From: an uncultured Verrucomicrobiales bacterium
Lineage (GTDB): Bacteria; Verrucomicrobiota; Verrucomicrobiia; Verrucomicrobiales; DEV007
Assembly: GCA_913058215.1 (NCBI GenBank)
Contig: CAJXQE010000032.1
Span: 1-34,229 of the forward strand
DNA length: 34,229 bases
Reading direction: 5' to 3'
The position numbers and the translations under genes are program-made. The notes beneath the pieces are model-generated. The model had not been told where the DNA came from. It saw nothing but the letters and a program-made list of their open reading frames with translations, and made no database searches. Numbering within the stretch: position 1 is the stretch's first letter; every line of letters starts with the position of its first letter. Positions 9,529-29,692 of the stretch are shown in pieces.

Positions 9529-10632
9529 TCAGTCTTCCTGAGTTCCGCCGGCCGAGTGCCCGAGTTCCTCGTACTCCGGAGGAAGGGCTGCGCGGAATCG
9601 TGATTTATCGATCGCTTTCATGTAGGCCTCCAGAGGAGACACTTTGCCACCAACGAGCTGCTCCCAGATGGCATCATCCATGAACTGCATTCCGTACTCT
9701 CTACCACCGGTAATGATATCGTAAAGCTTCTGGGTGGAACCTTCCCGAATCACCGAAGCAACAGCAGGAGTGGAAACAAGAATCTCATTCACAGCAATTC
9801 GGCCCGGCTGGTCATCACGCTTTAACAAAAGCTGAGCGACCACACCGCGAAGTGAGCCCGCCAGCATCGTTCGAACCTGAGACTGCTGATCAGACGGGAA
9901 AACGTCGACAAGACGGTCAACGGTTTTACGCGCATTGTTAGTGTGAAGGGTTCCGAACACGAGCAGACCTGTCTCTGCAGCGGTCAGTGCGAGTGAAATG
10001 GTTTCCAAATCCCGCATCTCCCCCACCAGAACGATATCGGCATCTTCCCGGAGAGAGGCGCGAAGCCCGTCAGCGAAAGATGGACAGTGAATGGGGACCT
10101 CGCGCTGACTAATCGTTGATTTCTTATGTTCGTGAACGAACTCAATCGGCTCTTCAACTGTGATAATGTGTCGCGCGTAGGTGCGGTTGATATAATCCAT
10201 CAGCCCCGCAAGGGTCGTGGATTTACCGGAACCGGTCGGACCGGTCACCAGTACTAAACCGCTTCGCAAATCACCGAATGTTTCAATCGTCGGTGGAAGG
10301 TTCAGTTCCGCGATCGTCTTGATGTTGGTCGGAATAAGACGAAAGACTGCCCCGAGACCGTTCTTTTGCTTGAAGTAGTTGCAACGAAAGCGTGACTCCT
10401 CATCCATTTCGTAGGCAAAGTCGAGATCGCCTTTTTCAAGGAAACGCTCATAGGCCTTTTCATCACAAATTTCCCGGAGCATGTGATCGAGCGTTGAATG
10501 CTCAAGGATTCCTTCCGCAATAGCGGAGACTGCGCCGTGAGCGCGAACTTTTGGTGGCTGCCCTTCACTGAGGTGAAGGTCAGAACCGCCGGAACTTACG
10601 AGGTGTTGAAAATATTGGTCAATAACTGCCAT
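9529..10632 (-). CDS. pilT: Type IV pilus retraction ATPase, PilT family
   Basis: PilT is a hexameric cytoplasmic ATPase that depolymerises type IV pili and so drives twitching motility and DNA uptake. The 367 residues match the family. Visible are the N-terminal PAS-like start (GSDLHLSEGQPP), Walker A GPTGSGKST at 131-139, the Asp box around 154-166 (HIITVEEPIEFVH), Walker B (VLVGEMRDLETI, about 201-212) and the His box (TGLLVFGTLHTNNA, 221-234). The C-terminal AIRNLIRE-type signature is only loosely represented by AVASVIREG. A second PilT-like gene lies 39 bp upstream and a terminator directly follows, so this is the last gene of the operon. It is the closer of the two to canonical PilT. 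Confidence 0.93.
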   Translation of the reverse strand: MAVIDQYFQHLVSSGGSDLHLSEGQPPKVRAHGAVSAIAEGILEHSTLDHMLREICDEKAYERFLEKGDLDFAYEMDEESRFRCNYFKQKNGLGAVFRLIPTNIKTIAELNLPPTIETFGDLRSGLVLVTGPTGSGKSTTLAGLMDYINRTYARHIITVEEPIEFVHEHKKSTISQREVPIHCPSFADGLRASLREDADIVLVGEMRDLETISLALTAAETGLLVFGTLHTNNARKTVDRLVDVFPSDQQSQVRTMLAGSLRGVVAQLLLKRDDQPGRIAVNEILVSTPAVASVIREGSTQKLYDIITGGREYGMQFMDDAIWEQLVGGKVSPLEAYMKAIDKSRFRAALPPEYEELGHSAGGTQED

Positions 10633-10671
10633 GAGATAACAAAAAGGTTTGGGATTAAGAATTGAGCCGGA

Positions 10672-11754
10672 TCAAAGTCCGAGGCCGGTGCGAAGCGTTC
10701 CTGGATCGAGCGCACGACCGAGAGCCTCTTCGCTTGTGATGAGGCCTTCGTGGTAAAGTTCAGCAAGGGCGTCGTCCATCATGATCATTCCGATTTTCTT
10801 ACCGGTTTGCATCACGCCTGGAAGCATGAAGGTTTTCCCGTCACGAATGATGGCCGAAACCGCGGGGGTATTGACGAGAAGCTCCAAAGCCAGTTCCCGC
10901 CCCGTTCCGTCTTTACGCGGAACCAGCTGTTGGGAAATAACGCCTCGGAGCGATTCACCGACCATGATCCGAATCTGCTCGCGTTGCTCGGTAGGGAACA
11001 CATCGAGAATCCGATCCAGAGTCCGGGCGGCGCTACCTGTGTGAAGGGTGGCCAAAACGAGGTGCCCCGTTTCTGCGGCGGTAATCGCCAGCGAGATCGT
11101 TTCCAGATCTCGCATTTCCCCGACCATGATTACATCGGGATCTTCACGAAGAGCTGCCCGCAGGGCATGGGAGAAACTTTCGGTGTGGGTATGAACTTCA
11201 CGCTGATTCACGTGGCACCCCTCGGATTCAATCACATACTCAATCGGATCTTCGAGAGTAATAATGTGATCCGAGCGGTCTTTGTTGATTTGATTAATCA
11301 GGGCAGCCAGAGTTGTAGATTTACCGGAACCAACCGCACCGGTCACGAGGACAAGCCCGTTGTGGTACTGGAGCAGCGGTTTGATCGCCTCAGGGAGGCC
11401 GAGATCATCCATGCTGCGGAGATCGGTGCTGATGACCCGGAAGACCATCTCCCAGCCGAGGCGGGTATTCACGACAGAAGCACGAAAACGGCCAAAGCCG
11501 GGGTCGTAGGCAAAATCGACATCACCTTTTTCCTCCAGGCGCCTGAGCTCCGCTTCGGGTAGATAATTTCTGGCAAGGGTTTCGGTTCCTTCCGGACTCA
11601 ATTCCTCTGCATTTTCCCAAATGGGTTGAAGAAGTCCGAATCGCCTCCATTTCGGTTTGCAAGTGGGAGCGAGGTGTACGTCGGAAACGTCATACTCCTG
11701 AGCAAGCTTCAGGTATTCGTCTACGTGTTCGAGGGCTGCTACTGTATCTGACAT
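10672..11754 (-). CDS. Second PilT-family ATPase (PilU-like position)
   Basis: A 360-residue PilT-type ATPase with Walker A GAVGSGKST at 139-147, an Asp box (HIITLEDPIEYV), Walker B (VIMVGEMRDLETI) and a His box (TGHLVLATLHTGSA). The N-terminus (DVSDVHLAPTCKP) is more diverged than in its partner, and Walker A has Ala-Val in place of Pro-Thr. Paired pilT genes are common. In other bacteria the second product (PilU) assists retraction under load, and that is the likely role here, but orthology to PilU is inferred. It sits 9 bp after the gene at 11764-12189 and 39 bp before pilT. Confidence 0.9.
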   Translation of the reverse strand: MSDTVAALEHVDEYLKLAQEYDVSDVHLAPTCKPKWRRFGLLQPIWENAEELSPEGTETLARNYLPEAELRRLEEKGDVDFAYDPGFGRFRASVVNTRLGWEMVFRVISTDLRSMDDLGLPEAIKPLLQYHNGLVLVTGAVGSGKSTTLAALINQINKDRSDHIITLEDPIEYVIESEGCHVNQREVHTHTESFSHALRAALREDPDVIMVGEMRDLETISLAITAAETGHLVLATLHTGSAARTLDRILDVFPTEQREQIRIMVGESLRGVISQQLVPRKDGTGRELALELLVNTPAVSAIIRDGKTFMLPGVMQTGKKIGMIMMDDALAELYHEGLITSEEALGRALDPGTLRTGLGL

Positions 11755-18611: not shown

Positions 18612-20789
18612 ATGAAGAAACTCGCAACCGTATTCATCGTAGCCGTTTTGGTGCCGACCTTGGTACTTGCATGGCTTGCAGTGCGTTCGATGCGGGATCA
18701 GGAGATCGTAATCAACAGTCAGCGGGCGCTGCTTCATCAAAGAGCAGCCGATGCCCTGGCGGACGATCTCAATACCTTCATGGACGATGTCCGGTTCTTT
18801 TTCAGTCAGTTGGTGGATGATTTGGTGATTGAACAAGGGGTCGAGCCGCTTTCGCAGAATTTCGATCAAGTCATTCAGAACCGCTGGACCCAGGCCAGCT
18901 TCGGCTGTGTGGTGACTGATGACGGGAAATTTCTATCCCCGGACCTTTCCAAAGCTGAGGCAGGAGAAGCAGCGAATGAGTTTATGGTTAAGAACCGGCT
19001 GTTTCTGACAAATCAATCCAGAGCATTGGTTTATCAGGCCCCGGCAATTCTCAATAGCCAGATCGTTGTAACGGAGGATGCTTTTCCGATAGAGGCTGAG
19101 CAAAGGAGCGAGATGAAATTGAAGAAGTCTGCAGAGGTCGCTGCTTCGGCGAGTGTTCCTGTGGCTTCAATCGCTGCGAGCAGCAGTCTGAAGGACAAGC
19201 GATTGGCGGCTCCCAAAGGTTCTGTTGCGGAAGAGAATGTTGCTCTTGACCCTTCCTCCGGATCGATCGGCTCTGCCGTGCAGATGCAAGTCCGGTCGAA
19301 AGTCGAGGTCGCGGGAAATAAGCTCCGCTCTTCACAATACAAGCCTCCTTCATCCTCATCCTTTTATCGAAAGGATGCCGAAAATAAACAAGCGAGGCAG
19401 CAGGAGGAAATGGAGCTTAGTGACCAGGCCGATGGGCTGAAAGAGCAGGCTCTCCCGAATATTTCGGTGGAACAGCAGTTGCGGCCGGTTGCAAGAAATG
19501 TGCAGCCTTCTCTCCGTGGTGCGACTGTTCAATTTGAAAAGCAGGATTCCGACGAGTCGCGGGGGCGGGAGATTTACGGTGATGTCTCGAACTGGTCCAG
19601 TCTGGAGAGAAATTCCGGAAATTTGAAGGAGTTGATGGGGGATCGCGATGAAGGTGCCATCAGCCGTTTTTTGCAGGACGGGATGCATATTCTTCTTTGG
19701 AAGAGGCATCCATCCGCTCCCGAAAGAGTATTCTGGGCGGAGTTGAATTTGGGAGCGATCCGCAAGGATTTGAAGAAGGTGATCGATGAAGTTGGTGGAA
19801 CGAATCGTGACGAAGCCAGCCTGGCTTTACTTGATTCCGATGGAGACGTAGTCGCCCAAACGGTTCCCGGTTTTCGGACGGATTGGAAGCGGCCGTTTGC
19901 TGCTGCTGAAGTCGGGGAGATTCTGCCCCATTGGGAGGTCGCCGCTTATTTGCTCGATCCCGGAATCGTGAATCGCTCCGCTCAAACCGTGAGGTTGACC
20001 ATCTGGTTGATGGTTCCGACTCTGTTGGCGGCGATTGCTATTGGTTCCTTTCTGATTTTTCGCGCGATCGGTTTGGAGATGAATTTGGCGAGGCAGAAAA
20101 CTGATTTCGTCAGCAATGTCAGTCATGAGTTGAAGACACCTCTAACTTCGATTCGGATGTTTTCTGATTTGCTGACCGGCAGTGATCTGCGCTCTCAGGA
20201 AAAGAGTCAGGAATACTCAGGGATTATTTCCTCCGAGGCAGCCCGATTGACACGTCTAATCAATAACCTGCTCGATTTTTCGCGGATGGATCGTGATGAG
20301 ATGAGGTATCAGAAGGTTCCGATTGAAGTGGTTGGTCTGATCCGGGATACCGTCGAGAATTATCGTATGCAAATCGAATCAGAGGGGTGTTCTCTCCGAC
20401 TGGACGATCAGGTAGGGGGAGAGGTGATGGTGAATGGCGATTGCGATGCGATTTCTCAGGTGTTGCTGAATCTTTTATCCAATGCCGAAAAGTATGGATG
20501 CAGTGGCGGTGAGATCGAGGTGAGAATTTCCCGTTGGGAAGAAGAGGGGGGAGTGAGTATTGAGGTGATGGACCGGGGACCGGGGATTGACCGGAAGTAT
20601 TCCTCCAAGATTTTTGAGAAGTTTTATCGCGTGGATGACTCTCTCAGCAGTGGAATCCAGGGATCCGGACTGGGGCTTACTCTTGCTCGTCAAATTGTCG
20701 ACTCTCACGGCGGCGCAATTTTTTATAAAAACCGGTCCGGAGGCGGGAGTCATTTCACCATTCAACTGCCGGGACTCGAGGAAAGTTAA
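18612..20789 (+). CDS. PhoR-like sensor histidine kinase with large periplasmic domain
   Basis: The 725-residue membrane kinase has a first helix at 5-24, a periplasmic part of about 440 residues, a second helix near 463-484, then HisKA and HATPase domains. The phospho-acceptor is His505 in FVSNVSHELKTPL, and the ATP site shows Asn624 (N box), Asp653 in DRGPGI and GSGLGL at 684-689. There is no recognisable HAMP domain; only about 20 residues separate helix 2 from His505. The periplasmic part is interrupted at about 167-318 by a Ser/Ala/Gln/Lys-rich, probably disordered stretch. The cognate regulator starts two bases after its stop. The stimulus is unknown; the secreted VWA protein upstream is a candidate partner. 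Confidence 0.93.
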   Translation: MKKLATVFIVAVLVPTLVLAWLAVRSMRDQEIVINSQRALLHQRAADALADDLNTFMDDVRFFFSQLVDDLVIEQGVEPLSQNFDQVIQNRWTQASFGCVVTDDGKFLSPDLSKAEAGEAANEFMVKNRLFLTNQSRALVYQAPAILNSQIVVTEDAFPIEAEQRSEMKLKKSAEVAASASVPVASIAASSSLKDKRLAAPKGSVAEENVALDPSSGSIGSAVQMQVRSKVEVAGNKLRSSQYKPPSSSSFYRKDAENKQARQQEEMELSDQADGLKEQALPNISVEQQLRPVARNVQPSLRGATVQFEKQDSDESRGREIYGDVSNWSSLERNSGNLKELMGDRDEGAISRFLQDGMHILLWKRHPSAPERVFWAELNLGAIRKDLKKVIDEVGGTNRDEASLALLDSDGDVVAQTVPGFRTDWKRPFAAAEVGEILPHWEVAAYLLDPGIVNRSAQTVRLTIWLMVPTLLAAIAIGSFLIFRAIGLEMNLARQKTDFVSNVSHELKTPLTSIRMFSDLLTGSDLRSQEKSQEYSGIISSEAARLTRLINNLLDFSRMDRDEMRYQKVPIEVVGLIRDTVENYRMQIESEGCSLRLDDQVGGEVMVNGDCDAISQVLLNLLSNAEKYGCSGGEIEVRISRWEEEGGVSIEVMDRGPGIDRKYSSKIFEKFYRVDDSLSSGIQGSGLGLTLARQIVDSHGGAIFYKNRSGGGSHFTIQLPGLEES

Positions 20790-20791
20790 TC

Positions 20792-21502
20792 ATGGAACAA
20801 ACCAGAATTTTTATCGTGGAGGACGATCCCAGTATCCGTTTCGGACTGGAAGAAGTGCTAAAAGGGGAGGGCTTTCTGACCGGCTGTGCGGAAGACGGAG
20901 AAAATGCGGAGGCTAAGATCGGCGACTTTTTACCTGATCTCATTATGCTCGATGTGATGTTACCCGGGAAGAATGGGTATGAAATATGTAAGTCACTGAG
21001 AAGCAATGGATGTCGGATTCCGATATTGATGCTGACAGCCAAGGGGCAGGAAATTGACAAAGTGATCGGCCTGGATGCAGGCGCAGATGATTATGTGACG
21101 AAACCATTTGGAGTTCAGGAGCTGTTGGCTCGTGTCCATGCTCTCCTGCGCCGAACCCACCTCTTGAATGGCAGGGATGGCGTAGAGAAGCAAGTCTCTG
21201 ATAATGAGACGTTTGAGGTAGGGGATGCCACGATCAGCCCGCAGAGCTACGAAGCCACATTGAACGGGGAAACTGTACGCCTGACGCCGAAGGAAATGGA
21301 GCTGCTGAAGTTTTTCAGGGAGAAAAAAGGAAAGGCACTCTCCAGGGACGATTTACTGAATCGGGTGTGGGGAATTCAGTATTATGGGACCACCCGGACG
21401 CTTGATCAATGCGTGGCACAGTTGCGCAAAAAGATTGGAGATAACGGTTCAGACCCCAAATTTATCGTGACCATCCACGGTATTGGATACAAGCTGGCTT
21501 GA
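20792..21502 (+). CDS. PhoB/OmpR-family response regulator
   Basis: The 236-residue protein has a receiver domain with the acidic pair Asp11-Asp12, phospho-acceptor Asp54 (LDVMLPG), Thr82 (LTAKG) and Lys104 (YVTKPFG). A winged-helix DNA-binding domain follows at about 138-236 (LTPKEMELLKFF, SRDDLLNRVWG, RTLDQCVAQLRKKI, IVTIHGIGYKL). It is coupled to the kinase by a two-base gap. Members of this family bind direct repeats at an 11-bp period, and such an array lies before the first gene of this operon at 17041-17096, so autoregulation is likely. The target regulon cannot be told. Confidence 0.95.
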   Translation: MEQTRIFIVEDDPSIRFGLEEVLKGEGFLTGCAEDGENAEAKIGDFLPDLIMLDVMLPGKNGYEICKSLRSNGCRIPILMLTAKGQEIDKVIGLDAGADDYVTKPFGVQELLARVHALLRRTHLLNGRDGVEKQVSDNETFEVGDATISPQSYEATLNGETVRLTPKEMELLKFFREKKGKALSRDDLLNRVWGIQYYGTTRTLDQCVAQLRKKIGDNGSDPKFIVTIHGIGYKLA

Positions 21503-25044: not shown

Positions 25045-28000
25045 CTATCCGACAATGACCTCAGCTTTTCTGATGACAACGTCTTTGCTTCCGTTTCGGT
25101 AAATGTATCCCGGACGCAAAGTTTCAACGACTTGCGATTTTCCTCCGGAACCATTGGATCCATTTGAGCTATTACCGTTGAGATAATAGGCCTTCCGTGG
25201 GTTCACTTCGTGAGTCGGCACCAGCTTGATTCTCTTCCGCTCTTCAAGCGAAAGGATTGTTCCCGGTTCCAGATCAAACTGGTTCACGGAGAATTCTTTA
25301 AGCAAATCAAGGAAGCTGCCTTTCAAAATATGGAGCTGTTCAGCAACTTTCGGATAACGCCACTTCTTATCAAATTTCACGGCAAGATCGTCAATTAAAT
25401 CAAGCTTGTTGATGAGCTTGCGGCAGAGAATTTCTTCGTTTCCATTTACTGGTCCGACGACATTGTTCCTCGCGTTTTCGCTGAAGACATCTTTTCGGCT
25501 CAGACCGTTCTCTTCACGTTTTCTTTCGACGGCGTGTTCGAGCTGTCCTTCAAGATGCTTGAGTGCCTCCACTCGTTTCTCTGCGGCTTGAATGCTTTGA
25601 GTCAGGCGTTCTTCCTGAGCAAGCGTTTCGCGGCAGCGTTTCTGAACGGTGTTCAGTTCGGAACGTGAAACGTTCAAGCCCGACTTCATTTCGTTGCGCT
25701 CGGCGAGGAGTCTATCTTTCTCAGACTTCAATTCGTCATGCTGGATTCTGAAATCGGACATCCCTTTACTGAGACCTTCGAGCTCGCTCTCGAATTCGCT
25801 CTTCTTCGCGTTAGCGTCAGTAATCGCTTCCTGCAGATCCTTCAGTTCGTCAGACCCTTTGTCGAATTCTGATCTCTCACTGCGGGCATCCTCAAGACGG
25901 AGTTTCCATTTGTCCATCTCGCGATCGAAGGCGGCTTCCCGTTTCGACTGGTTCTCTAGGAGTTCGGAAATCTCAGACCTCTTGGCAGCGATGAGCTCCT
26001 CGGCTTCGACTCTTGATTTCCTTTCAAGGAAGAAAGAGGTTTTGGTATCACTGACGACGTTCCTCGTATTGTGAAGCACGCCGGAGAAGCCTTCACGGGT
26101 GACCTTGAGCTTTTCGCCAATCTCTTCCTTATCTTTCCGGACATCGTCGAGATCGGTTTCCAAATCGTCGATTCGTTCCAATAGTTCTTCAACTTCCTCT
26201 TCCTTGCGGGTAAGATGATCTTCAAGCTCGTGTTTCTCGGTCGAAAGCTCTTCACGTCCCTGGATAGCGAAACTGAGTGCCTTCTCGGCTTCGCTGAGTT
26301 TGATGTTTTCCTCGAGTTGAAGAAAGGCCTTCTGCTCGTCTCTTTCTCTCCATGCGTTACGGAGAACCTCTGACATTCCCTCGCGAGTTAGGTCAAGATT
26401 GAACGCTAAATCGCAATTGGTGCTCCGTTCCTGATCCAGAACAGTATGAATGGATTCGATTTCCTCTTTGAGTTCATCGATTCGCTCACTCTCCTCCTCA
26501 GCAATCCTTTGCTGTTCTGCCGCGACCTTCTCATTGAGGCTGACGATAACGAGCTCATCTTTTTCAATGCGGCGGCGATTATCCATGTTCTCCAAAGCAA
26601 GTTTGGAGTGGTCTGCTTCGCTGCTCTCAATATTTCTCGTGAGTGAGGCGTTTTCCGCTTTTACTTCAGCGAGGTTGCTCTTGAAAATTTTGATCTGATC
26701 TTCAGTCTCGCTGATTTGTTTTTCGGCAGACTTGAGATTCGATTCAAGTTCCTCTTTTGTTTTCGCTTCCCCTTTCAGGCTTGCTTCCAACGCAGCAATG
26801 CGTTGCTCAGCTTTTTCTCTCAGGTCGCGCTCTTCAATCAGTGCTTCGGAATCCTTCTCTTCGCTTTCCGCTTTAAGACTGGCAACGAGGGCAACTGCGG
26901 AAGCTGCCGCTGCGGCTTTAATGGCGAGATCTTTGGAGATTGAAGATTTCTCTGCTTTCTCCGTGGCGAGGGTCGACTCGGTCGATTTGAGTTGATCCGC
27001 AAGTTTCAGGTTTTCCTGTCTCAGGTCGCTCAATTCCGTGCCGAGCTTGGAAACTTCCTTGTTGGTTTCGTCCTTCTCTGTGGCCAAAGTCGACTCCGTG
27101 GATTTGAGCTCATCCGTAAGTTTCAGGTTTTCCTGTCTCAGGTCGTTCAGTTCCGCGCTAAGTTTGTTAACTTCCTTTTCGACTTTTCCTTTCTCTGTGG
27201 TCAGAGTCGACTCGGTGGATTTGATCTCCTCCGTGAGTTTCAGGTTTTCCTGTCTCAGATCGTTCAGTTCCGTACCAAGCTTGGAAACTTCCTTGTCGAT
27301 TTCTCCTTTCGAAGAAGCAGCCAGCGCATTGATTTCGTCGTCTTTGGAATCGATATCGGCTTGAAGGTCGGCGACCTTGCTGACCTCGCCCTGGAAAAGA
27401 CGGGTCATTTCGGCAACCTGCTTCTCCATAGACGCGGCTTTGTGTGTCGCCTCATCGGCGGCTTTGACCTTCTCTTCCAGTGAGGCAACAAGCCCGGCTT
27501 GCGATTTGAGTTCCTTCTGGGCTGTATTGAGTTGCTTCTCTGAGCTTATGGCGAGTTCGCTCTGTTTTGCGATCTCTTCCTTTAAGCCGGATACGGCATC
27601 CTCCTCTTCAGCTGTCAGGCGGGAGATCTCTTCCTCTCTGATGGCCAGGTCCTTGCGGGCAGATTTCAGTTCGGTTTCAAGGGCCTCAACCGAGCTCTTT
27701 CCTTCATCTTCAAGCTTGGTCACCAAGAGCAATTTCTCCGCGATTTCTTCATCGGAAGCTTTCAGTTTGCCTTCTGCAGCGAGAACCTGTTCCCCCTTCT
27801 CTGCAATCTCCTTTTTCAGCTCCTTGATAGTATCGGACTCGCTCGAAGAGATTTCTGAGATCTCTTTCTCCTTTTTAGCCAGTTCCTGACGGACGGTGGA
27901 AAGCTCTTCCTGAAGTTCTTTGGACGTTTCTTTCTCTTTCTCACTCAGTTCGGCGATCGCCGCTTCTGAAGCGGAAAGTTCTTTCTGCGTTTTCTTCAGT

Positions 28001-29463
28001 TCCGCTTTTACTGAATCGATCTCACTCTCTTTTTTAGAAACGAGAGTCTGAATCTCCTCCGACGCGTTGCTTCCTTTCGCCTCGATTTCGCTGATCAGCT
28101 TTTCCTTGGCGGAAATTTCCTTTCGAGCTGCTTTCAGTTCGGAACCTGAAGCCTTAATCAGAGCCGCTTTTTCAGCGACTTGCTTTTTGAGAGTCTTTGT
28201 TCCTGCGCTCTCTTTTTCAAATTTCTTTTCCAGGGTAGCCAGTTTCTTCTCAATCGCGGTTTTCCCCTTGGTTGCTTCCTTGCTACCCTTTTTAGCTTCC
28301 ACAAGATCGGCGGTCAGGCCGAAAACTTTTTGTTCAAGGGTGGCGCGTTCTGATTCCAAAGACTCCTGAAGTGAGGCGACTTGAACTTGAAGCTCTTCCT
28401 CTTTCTGCTGAATCCCTTTGGTATTCGATGCCTCATCCGCAGCAAGAGACTCTTCCAGCTTTGCCAGATTTGCGGACTCCGCTTTGAGTTTTTTTGAAAT
28501 GATTGCAGCAGCGGCCTTTTCCTCTGCGAGTGATTTTTTGAGTGCCTCAGCTTCGGTAAGTGCCTTATCTTCAGCGGATTTACTCGCGGCTTCACGTTTC
28601 TTCAGCTCCTCAAGTTCTATGTCTGCCTTCCTGATCGCAGACGTATAGCCCTCCAATTTCAGAGGCATGGTGGCGGCCTTGTCTTTCTCGACTCTGAGCT
28701 CAGTCTCCAGAAGCGCGATGCGTCCGTTCAAATCATCGAGCTTCTTCTTGTCATCTTGGGAATACTTCTTCTCCTTGGTTTCCAATTTGGCTCCAAGCTT
28801 CTCCACTTTCGCAGTAACGGTGCTAACCAGACGTGTTTTGTTGCTGACTTCTTTGGACAGCTCCTCGCGAATCTTTGATTCAGCCTCGAGTTTTCTTTTC
28901 AGTTCAGCGGCGCTGTGTCGAAGTTCGGCCGCTTCTTCTCTGGCTTGGTCTCTTGCGGTCTCCAGCTGGGTCAGTTTTTGACGAAGCGAAACAAGCTGGG
29001 TGTGTTCCTTTGAATCCCCAAGAGGGCCTGTATTCGATTTTCCTTTAATCGTGTCGGGAGTGGAAAATGAGGCGATCACATCGCTCGATTTCTTTGAAGT
29101 CCGATTCCGCTTCGTAATTGCGGATCCCCTTTCGCTGAGTGCAACCACCTTAGGCAGGGTGTCAGCGTGCTCCGCCACTTTTACTTTCAAGATACCGAAC
29201 TTGATGTAATCGCCGGGCGCAATCTTGGTTGGTTCCTCCACCCGCACTCCGTTCAGAAATGTACCGTTACTTGATCCGCAATCGATCAGAGTATACTCAC
29301 CTTTCTCATCCATTCTGATCTCTGAATGGTACGCAGAAATGTAGGTTTCCTTGATTCGGAGATCATTATCGAAGCGGCGTCCAACACGATACTTGGACTT
29401 TTTCAGAACAAGCTCGAAAAGGTCGCCATCCACATTTGTGGTAATAAGGAGTTTGAGTCTCAT
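25045..29463 (-). CDS. Giant FHA - coiled-coil - GrpE-like protein
   Basis: The frame opens at 29595, but the ATG at 29463-29461 begins the FHA domain directly: 1472 residues. FHA (1-97) has the conserved GR at 28-29, the S-x-x-H set in YISAYHSEI (43-48) and SSNGTFLNG (64-72), so it should bind phosphothreonine peptides. Residues 170-1330 are almost unbroken heptad-type coiled coil, including three 39-residue near-identical repeats. Residues 1335-1472 resemble GrpE: a paired helix (LDLIDDLAVKFDKKW, LHILKGSFLDLLKEFSV), then RIKLVP, a Gly/Ser/Asn insert, and ETLRPGYIYRNGSKDVVIRKAEVIV, matching the GrpE beta-wing pattern GY-x-L-x-x-R-x-(I/L)R-x-A-x-V-x-V. The Hsp70 gene is next. Confidence 0.85.
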   Translation of the reverse strand: MRLKLLITTNVDGDLFELVLKKSKYRVGRRFDNDLRIKETYISAYHSEIRMDEKGEYTLIDCGSSNGTFLNGVRVEEPTKIAPGDYIKFGILKVKVAEHADTLPKVVALSERGSAITKRNRTSKKSSDVIASFSTPDTIKGKSNTGPLGDSKEHTQLVSLRQKLTQLETARDQAREEAAELRHSAAELKRKLEAESKIREELSKEVSNKTRLVSTVTAKVEKLGAKLETKEKKYSQDDKKKLDDLNGRIALLETELRVEKDKAATMPLKLEGYTSAIRKADIELEELKKREAASKSAEDKALTEAEALKKSLAEEKAAAAIISKKLKAESANLAKLEESLAADEASNTKGIQQKEEELQVQVASLQESLESERATLEQKVFGLTADLVEAKKGSKEATKGKTAIEKKLATLEKKFEKESAGTKTLKKQVAEKAALIKASGSELKAARKEISAKEKLISEIEAKGSNASEEIQTLVSKKESEIDSVKAELKKTQKELSASEAAIAELSEKEKETSKELQEELSTVRQELAKKEKEISEISSSESDTIKELKKEIAEKGEQVLAAEGKLKASDEEIAEKLLLVTKLEDEGKSSVEALETELKSARKDLAIREEEISRLTAEEEDAVSGLKEEIAKQSELAISSEKQLNTAQKELKSQAGLVASLEEKVKAADEATHKAASMEKQVAEMTRLFQGEVSKVADLQADIDSKDDEINALAASSKGEIDKEVSKLGTELNDLRQENLKLTEEIKSTESTLTTEKGKVEKEVNKLSAELNDLRQENLKLTDELKSTESTLATEKDETNKEVSKLGTELSDLRQENLKLADQLKSTESTLATEKAEKSSISKDLAIKAAAAASAVALVASLKAESEEKDSEALIEERDLREKAEQRIAALEASLKGEAKTKEELESNLKSAEKQISETEDQIKIFKSNLAEVKAENASLTRNIESSEADHSKLALENMDNRRRIEKDELVIVSLNEKVAAEQQRIAEEESERIDELKEEIESIHTVLDQERSTNCDLAFNLDLTREGMSEVLRNAWRERDEQKAFLQLEENIKLSEAEKALSFAIQGREELSTEKHELEDHLTRKEEEVEELLERIDDLETDLDDVRKDKEEIGEKLKVTREGFSGVLHNTRNVVSDTKTSFFLERKSRVEAEELIAAKRSEISELLENQSKREAAFDREMDKWKLRLEDARSERSEFDKGSDELKDLQEAITDANAKKSEFESELEGLSKGMSDFRIQHDELKSEKDRLLAERNEMKSGLNVSRSELNTVQKRCRETLAQEERLTQSIQAAEKRVEALKHLEGQLEHAVERKREENGLSRKDVFSENARNNVVGPVNGNEEILCRKLINKLDLIDDLAVKFDKKWRYPKVAEQLHILKGSFLDLLKEFSVNQFDLEPGTILSLEERKRIKLVPTHEVNPRKAYYLNGNSSNGSNGSGGKSQVVETLRPGYIYRNGSKDVVIRKAEVIVG
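26944..27294 (-). repeat. Three tandem 117-bp units inside the coiled-coil gene
   Basis: Three units encode 39 residues each: KEVSKLGTELNDLRQENLKL and its variants, ending in KSTEST-L-TEK. The block CAGGTTTTCCTGTCTCAG recurs at 27007, 27124 and 27241, exactly 117 bp apart. The high DNA identity points to recent tandem duplication that lengthened the rod in frame. Confidence 0.92.
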
Positions 29464-29495
29464 AGAGGTGCGATTAAAACAGATAGAGTGAGTGC

Positions 29496-29547
29496 TATAT
29501 AGGAGGGCACGGTTGTATGATAATTTAGCAGAAAAATGGTTATCATA
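29496..29547 (-). promoter_or_regulatory. Candidate promoter and operator of the FHA-GrpE/Hsp70 operon
   Basis: An inverted repeat, TATGATAA (29516-29523) and TTATCATA (29540-29547), has a 16-bp spacer. On the minus strand the half nearer the gene contains TTATCA, 16 bp before TATATA (29501-29496), a fair -35/-10 pair that would give a leader of about 25 bases before the ATG at 29463. A regulator on the dyad would cover the -35 element. No CIRCE-type heat-shock element is present. Confidence 0.4.
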
Positions 29548-29692
29548 AAGCATAAAAATTACGAAAATGTCTATCACTTCTGCGAAAATGGGCATTTTTG
29601 GCCTATTTTCGACAATTATTTGAATAAAGATGCCGGAGTTTTTTACATTTCTTGCAAATTGTTATGATTGATCCCCTATTTCTCTTAGACGA

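Follow-up and report, generated by a model that had tools for sequence, protein, structure and literature searches.

In most accounts GrpE is a small protein that partners DnaK. A gene of an uncultured Verrucomicrobiales bacterium raises the question of what a GrpE-like head would be doing at one end of a very long coiled-coil rod, when the other end of the same protein carries an FHA domain. The gene lies in the window analysed here, a stretch of 34,229 nucleotides from a 7.67-Mb draft genome in 595 contigs (G000). In our reading, to which we give a probability of about two in three, the product is an exchange factor that sits on a tether, is positioned by phosphothreonine binding and acts on the lid-less Hsp70 encoded next to it. 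The two proteins most likely belong to a dedicated Hsp70 system that exists in parallel to the ordinary DnaK-DnaJ-GrpE system.

Domain layout of the rod protein

The rod gene is on the minus strand (Table 1); the plus-strand frame is riddled with stops. The open frame covers nucleotides 25045-29595 and encodes 1,516 residues. Since the rod proteins of relatives begin with M-x-LKL, translation likely starts at residue 45 of this frame, nucleotide 29463, which gives the same protein length as the initial annotation. The presence of an FHA domain, a long heptad coil and a GrpE-like head in one protein is confirmed.

Table 1. Positions of the rod gene, its domains and the two neighbouring genes in the window.
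Feature	Position	Strand	Details
FHA - coiled-coil rod - GrpE-like protein	25045..29463	-	1,472 aa; start taken from the N-terminus of relatives
FHA domain (Pfam FHA)	29194..29391	-	Residues 69-134 of the 1,516-aa frame
Post-FHA linker	28999..29163	-	Two T-x-x-I/V motifs in most same-genus relatives
Proline-free coiled-coil stretch	25453..28662	-	Residues 268-1337
Tandem repeat inside rod	26945..27310	-	3.1 copies of a 117-bp (39-residue) unit
GrpE-like head	25048..25479	-	Last 144 residues; profile and model evidence
Predicted β-wing of GrpE-like head, four strands	25051..25134	-	Strands in residues 162-189 of the 190-residue model
Partner Hsp70, 499 aa	23427..24926	-	Nucleotide-binding domain and substrate-binding β-domain; no helical lid; altered linker
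Third gene, 85 aa	23139..23396	-	Two-helix domain with weak J-domain likeness; no HPD

The GrpE-like head

Taken alone, the head sequence of the window protein is a weak match to GrpE. The full-length protein gave no Pfam GrpE match at E <= 1, and the last 144 and the last 190 residues scored 18.7 bits (E = 0.0015) and 21.4 bits (E = 0.00021), respectively, against a cut-off of 25.8 bits. The relatives make the assignment secure. When PF01025 was run over 36 of them, several rod-class proteins scored above the cut-off (for example, a 1,168-residue frame with E = 2.7e-8), and Pfam GrpE matched 34 of 40 C-termini (125-190 residues each, from the rod class and its paralogues) at E <= 0.01, the best with E = 2.1e-12. 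A profile comparison with hhalign aligned the head to canonical GrpEs of the same order with P = 9.1e-7 and a probability of 91%, covering 77 columns only, from the short helices on, in a register that agrees through G-Y and R-x-A-x-V-x-V. The same head profile gave a probability of 0.2% against J-domains. When the PDB was searched by sequence with the head profile, unrelated partial matches ranked ahead of GrpE, which had E = 0.18. The profile also recovers a canonical GrpE in genome G034 (L186, E = 2e-5), so short, weak matches to it may be ordinary GrpEs.

An AlphaFold2 model of the last 190 residues, built with 18 sequences, has a mean pLDDT of 79 and a pTM of 0.55. In it, a long helix is followed, after an ill-defined break, by two further helices and four C-terminal strands, and the block-mean pLDDT of residues 161-190 is 89-92. 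In a Foldseek search of the PDB with this model, ranks 1-8 were all GrpE (E from 6e-5 to 0.13), with 1dkg at rank 1 as the sole match under 0.001; rank 9 was unrelated (E = 1.6). The whole-chain r.m.s. deviation from GrpE structures is ~20 Å, which we attribute to the long helix and the hinged domain being superposed as one body; the fold match thus rests on probability and ranking, and not on global superposition. With the β-wing present in the predicted fold and a significant profile match obtained through the relatives, the initial proposal of a GrpE-like C-terminus holds.

The head has its helices and C-terminal β-wing in the same order as GrpE, and, as with GrpE, the gene adjoins an Hsp70 gene. 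The rod protein differs from GrpE in having an FHA domain and a spacer of up to ~1,575 residues in front of the head, and in two altered motifs. The rod head keeps neither the stalk signature of the canonical set (R..A...N.R.R) nor the FDPxxHEA motif with which the β-wing begins. Most members of the genus have LS-x-EERKRI instead of FDPxxHEA, and another family has V-D-V-x-L-R-x-R-I. A review (PMC12987570) puts the length of the GrpE stalk at ~70 residues. According to PMC10803776, the GrpE β-domain touches DnaK subdomains IB and IIB, and the stalk touches subdomain IA and the substrate domain. For the human GrpE homologue, PMC11685456 adds a contact between the wing and the Hsp70 lid. We considered whether the lid-contacting Asp of GrpE (PMC11685456) had been lost together with the lid, and rejected this as a clean story because members of another family keep an Asp at the aligned position though their Hsp70s have no lid. 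Our own reading is that the rod head and the lid-less Hsp70 are a dedicated pair whose contacts may have drifted together.

A conserved cluster with a lid-less Hsp70

The rod gene comes first in a conserved cluster, followed by the gene for the lid-less Hsp70 and then by that for a small helical protein; in the window the intergenic gaps are 118 and 30 bases. The Hsp70 can be aligned with a DnaK 1-509 construct, and its sequence stops at the point at which a lid would begin. Like DnaK, it contains both a nucleotide-binding domain and a substrate-binding β-domain, and it keeps the P-A-x-F-N, G-G-G-T-x-D and V-N-E-P-T segments. It differs from DnaK in having a shorter insert in the nucleotide-binding domain, no lid and a replaced interdomain linker: VVLLDVTPLSL in the DnaK of the same genome has become EVCNHSYGTLA, with small variations among partner Hsp70s. 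Neither the helical lid nor the hydrophobic VLLL linker is present in any of the 15 partner Hsp70s that were aligned, including that of the window. The host genome also encodes a full-length DnaK and another Hsp70, and keeps a canonical GrpE beside DnaJ. A 622-residue Hsp70 frame with a lid-length tail lies on contig G000:C418 (L130), as does a 191-residue frame with a J-domain match.

The third protein has no significant Pfam match and no NCBIfam match. Its AlphaFold2 model (mean pLDDT, 78) consists of two long helices, and Foldseek ranks 1-6 for this model are J-domains, among them the DnaK-bound 5nro, with E values of 0.56-1.5. A comparison with J-domains by hhalign gave a probability of 3%, and the HPD motif is absent from all 24 third proteins. 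We therefore rejected the third gene as a true J-domain and retain the weak resemblance.

The same gene order next to an Hsp70 recurs in related genomes. There are 29 rod-class loci: the window and 28 that were fetched (L033-L060). In 25 of these a single frame holds both FHA domain and head, the exceptions being three loci cut at contig ends (L039, L044, L047) and one with a broken frame, L049. In L049 (G012:C414) the two domains are in separate short frames, which could be due to a frameshift, a pseudogene or an assembly error. In 25 of the 29 loci, window included, the rod gene is followed immediately downstream by an Hsp70 frame of 496-540 residues on the same strand; L048 and L059 lack it, and in the genomes of L053 and L055 it is on another contig. 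Rod gene and lid-less Hsp70 are on different contigs in G037 and G052. The small third gene is next in 24 of the 29 loci, and the contig of L046 ends before it. These counts leave out the paralogue classes and three diverged copies (L061-L063, from G024 and G029), which have no such Hsp70 within the fetched stretch; L061 is in split frames and L063 has no FHA match.

Classes were assigned by hand in 56 genomes. Of these, 27 have both the rod class and the lid-less Hsp70, two the rod alone (G031, G039), two the lid-less Hsp70 with no detected rod (G022, G049) and 25 neither (Fisher, 3e-11). For Hsp70 and third gene the counts are 28 with both, one with the Hsp70 alone, two with the third gene alone and 25 with neither. 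As the 56 genomes are related, co-occurrence probabilities of this kind are too small, and the table of counts itself is the evidence. Genome G055, counted as rod-negative, contains a 949-residue proline-rich protein (L184 4597-7443) with a matching head and no FHA match, and no lid-less Hsp70 in the fetched stretch.

The relatives that could be named by alignment of the head are 17 loci from metagenome-assembled Verrucomicrobiota, of which 14 are Verrucomicrobiales and one is Akkermansiaceae bacterium UBA2381. Among 387 genomes drawn from the phylum, with up to 11 candidates scored in each, at least nine match the head profile at E <= 1e-5. Seven of these have rod-class frames and all seven are from the same order; the other two are weaker matches in short frames, which may be ordinary GrpEs.

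The rod as a probable tether

The giant heptad-rich coil of the initial annotation is borne out. In residues 151-1340 (~1,190 residues) hydrophobic positions recur with a period of 3.5 (z = 23, from 200 shuffles); a period of 3.6 also scores high (z = 18), and there is no signal at 3.8. Glu makes up 18% of this stretch, Lys 13%, Leu 12% and Pro 0.2%, and 1,070 consecutive residues contain no proline. Coiled coils rise by ~0.15 nm per residue, so the proline-free part would measure ~159 nm if it formed one continuous helix pair. The 117-bp tandem repeat is a visible means of rod growth.

The spacer between FHA domain and head varies greatly in the family, from ~46 residues in L060 to ~1,575 in L051, with the boundaries set only roughly. 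In L052 the coil is preceded by a long stretch rich in proline, and L058-L060 have short proline-rich linkers. Between the window protein and five relatives of the same genus, identity is 58-68% in the FHA region, 56-63% in the head and 28-37% in the best stretch of rod; one of the five gave no rod match. Next to the head, the rod of the window aligns to that of L034 over 331 residues with zero length change, and to that of L033 with 496 against 498 residues. A spacer that varies in this way, and is alignable near the head, is best described as a tether that is free in overall length and more conserved near the head.

Could the rod be the point of the protein, and the head an accessory? The protein might be a structural scaffold, a long filament or spacer like the coils of bacterial cytoskeletons, with the GrpE-like end as a dimerisation cap that does not catalyse exchange and the Hsp70 helping in filament assembly. 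This would fit a protein that is mostly coil, has changed the canonical GrpE motifs in its head and aligns to two relatives in the head-proximal rod with little or no change in length. The coil models SMC and KIF21A (NCBIfam, Pfam) also match the rod, under their cut-offs. We rejected SMC/Rad50 or cytoskeletal membership of the rod, as these matches reflect coil composition and are far below the cut-offs (72 bits against 567 for the NCBIfam SMC model). The scaffold is at odds with the far better conservation of the head than of the rod. A spacer that shrinks to ~46 residues or turns proline-rich (L058, L060) would also be odd for a filament, and yet head, FHA domain, Hsp70 and third gene stay in these loci. 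We consider a mainly structural role unlikely.

FHA domain, linker and possible phospho-signals

The FHA domain at the N-terminus is canonical, as first annotated: the Pfam match has E = 4e-18, and G-R, S-x-x-H and S-S-N-G-T are all there. Of 34 family members picked for having an FHA match, all 34 have S-x-x-H, 33 have G-R and 30 have the Asn of N-G-T. We take the G-R, S-x-x-H and N-G positions to be the residues that contact phosphothreonine. The host genome contains 38 kinase-domain matches, 37 of which are over the cut-off. A search beside the rod gene in the 29 loci, with four kinases of the genome as queries, found one frame, in L053 only, which indicates that no kinase is a conserved neighbour.

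FHA domains prefer a hydrophobic residue at position +3, and in proteins of the OdhI/GarA type the FHA domain binds a phosphothreonine in the linker. The linkers that follow the FHA domain of the rod proteins are rich in candidate sites: 21 linkers contain 45 T-x-x-I/V/L motifs compared with 16.4 (sd 3.6) expected, and 0 of 1,000 shuffles reach 45, a significance that is overstated because the linker sequences are related. A conserved pair of Thr motifs is present in 11 of 14 same-genus linkers. These observations, and the +3 preference, speak for an inhibitory or sequestering arm. Its FHA domain would bind a phosphothreonine, either in the linker of the same protein or in that of a partner, close or cross-link the rod in an OdhI/GarA-like manner and withhold the head. 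Apart from the inflated statistics, the difficulty is the window protein itself, whose linker lacks the conserved T-x-x-I/V pair and has T-x-x-I/V/L matches at other positions only. We regard such a phospho-switched inhibitor as quite unlikely.

The window protein has the FHA domain in common with FhaB/FipA and the OdhI/GarA type, and its relatives also share Thr motifs near the FHA domain. It scores well under the NCBIfam cut-offs for these proteins, however, and differs from them in that its FHA domain is joined to a chaperone factor.

A proposed dedicated exchange factor at the end of a tether

Taken together, the GrpE profile match, the predicted β-wing and the gene order make a tethered, dedicated chaperone system well supported by anatomy. 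The initial annotation had proposed a tethered chaperone hub, perhaps recruited by the product of a Ser/Thr kinase; the tethered, dedicated system is upheld by the profile and fold of the head and by the gene order in 25 of 29 loci, and the hub role and the phosphorylation-dependent part stay tentative.

In the mechanism that we favour, a tethered exchange factor, two copies of the rod protein probably pair along the coil, as the coil itself and the known GrpE dimers suggest; canonical GrpE is a dimer. Pairing along the coil would let the GrpE-like heads dimerise at one end and would place a pair of FHA domains at the other. The head, judging from its fold and the gene pairing, may open the nucleotide cleft of the adjacent lid-less Hsp70 and so allow ADP to leave. 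The FHA pair could dock on threonines that one of the many Ser/Thr kinases in the cell has phosphorylated, and this docking would place the chaperone at a particular assembly, or free it from there. The small third protein may serve the Hsp70 as a J-like partner, a role to which its weak resemblance points. A bolder version, of which we are rather doubtful, is a complete second Hsp70 system, made up of the lid-less Hsp70, a J-like helper that lacks HPD and the exchange factor, that is spatially programmed by phosphorylation, with the FHA anchor up to ~150-230 nm from the head and a kinase setting the place of client release.

That the protein is an ordinary redundant GrpE, a spare copy fused to a coil and an FHA domain and serving the general DnaK, is very improbable: the head is GrpE-like and the genome does contain a general DnaK, but it has also retained the canonical GrpE, and across genomes the fused form goes together with the lid-less Hsp70.

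What sets the system apart is an exchange-type head on a very long rod with a phosphothreonine-reader domain, paired with an Hsp70 that has no lid and an altered linker. If the head is active, the Hsp70 cycle would be under the control of place and phosphorylation, and the pair would be a natural test of how far the exchange reaction depends on the lid, the linker and the GrpE stalk. We found no description of the FHA-rod-GrpE architecture in the literature searched, with subscription papers and annotation databases outside the search. The main text of a 2025 review of GrpE-like factors (PMC12987570) mentions neither FHA nor a fusion. Hsp70 and GrpE are also found in one specialised cluster in the GAP1-N2 GTPase conflict systems, which include Hsp70, GrpE and DnaJ-fused proteins according to the available text of PMC7159879. 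Those systems, most of them from actinobacteria and firmicutes, differ by having GTPases and FNIII proteins in the cluster, and the same portion of PMC7159879 describes no FHA-GrpE fusion for them.

Related GrpE-like proteins and other features of the window

The host genome encodes a second class of FHA-coil-GrpE-like protein of ~500 residues (G000:C292, L069 2277-3764), with relatives of ~500-700 residues. It scores 28.4 bits against Pfam GrpE, and no Hsp70 was seen in the stretches fetched for this class. A third class consists of short GrpE-like paralogues of ~170-195 residues. Eleven copies were fetched; the host copy is at G000:C4 (L068 5369-5920) and the relatives include L066, L067 and L176-L183. 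In nine of the eleven an invariant PTAPI follows an acidic stretch, and the other two are without that end. Inspection by eye revealed an N-terminal hydrophobic helix in eight of the nine PTAPI-bearing copies; in the bolder version of the mechanism, the short paralogue, with its hydrophobic helix and PTAPI, may be a membrane docking site. The neighbours of the short paralogues, again by eye, are bioD-like genes (8 of 11), methyltransferase-like genes (10 of 11) and glmM-like genes (7 of 11).

Different GrpE-like proteins, of 338 and 356 residues, lie beside one or two non-canonical Hsp70s in other genomes of the order Verrucomicrobiales (L124 3103-7537; L125 5396-8445), which suggests that several GrpE-Hsp70 pairings exist in the order.

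Promoter patterns were no commoner than in shuffled sequences; terminator-like sites numbered 15 against 9.8 in shuffles, and none was used as evidence. Elsewhere in the window, two consecutive type II/IV secretion ATPase genes are arranged in tandem on the minus strand (9529-11754), and a histidine kinase and response regulator pair is encoded on the plus strand (18612-21502).
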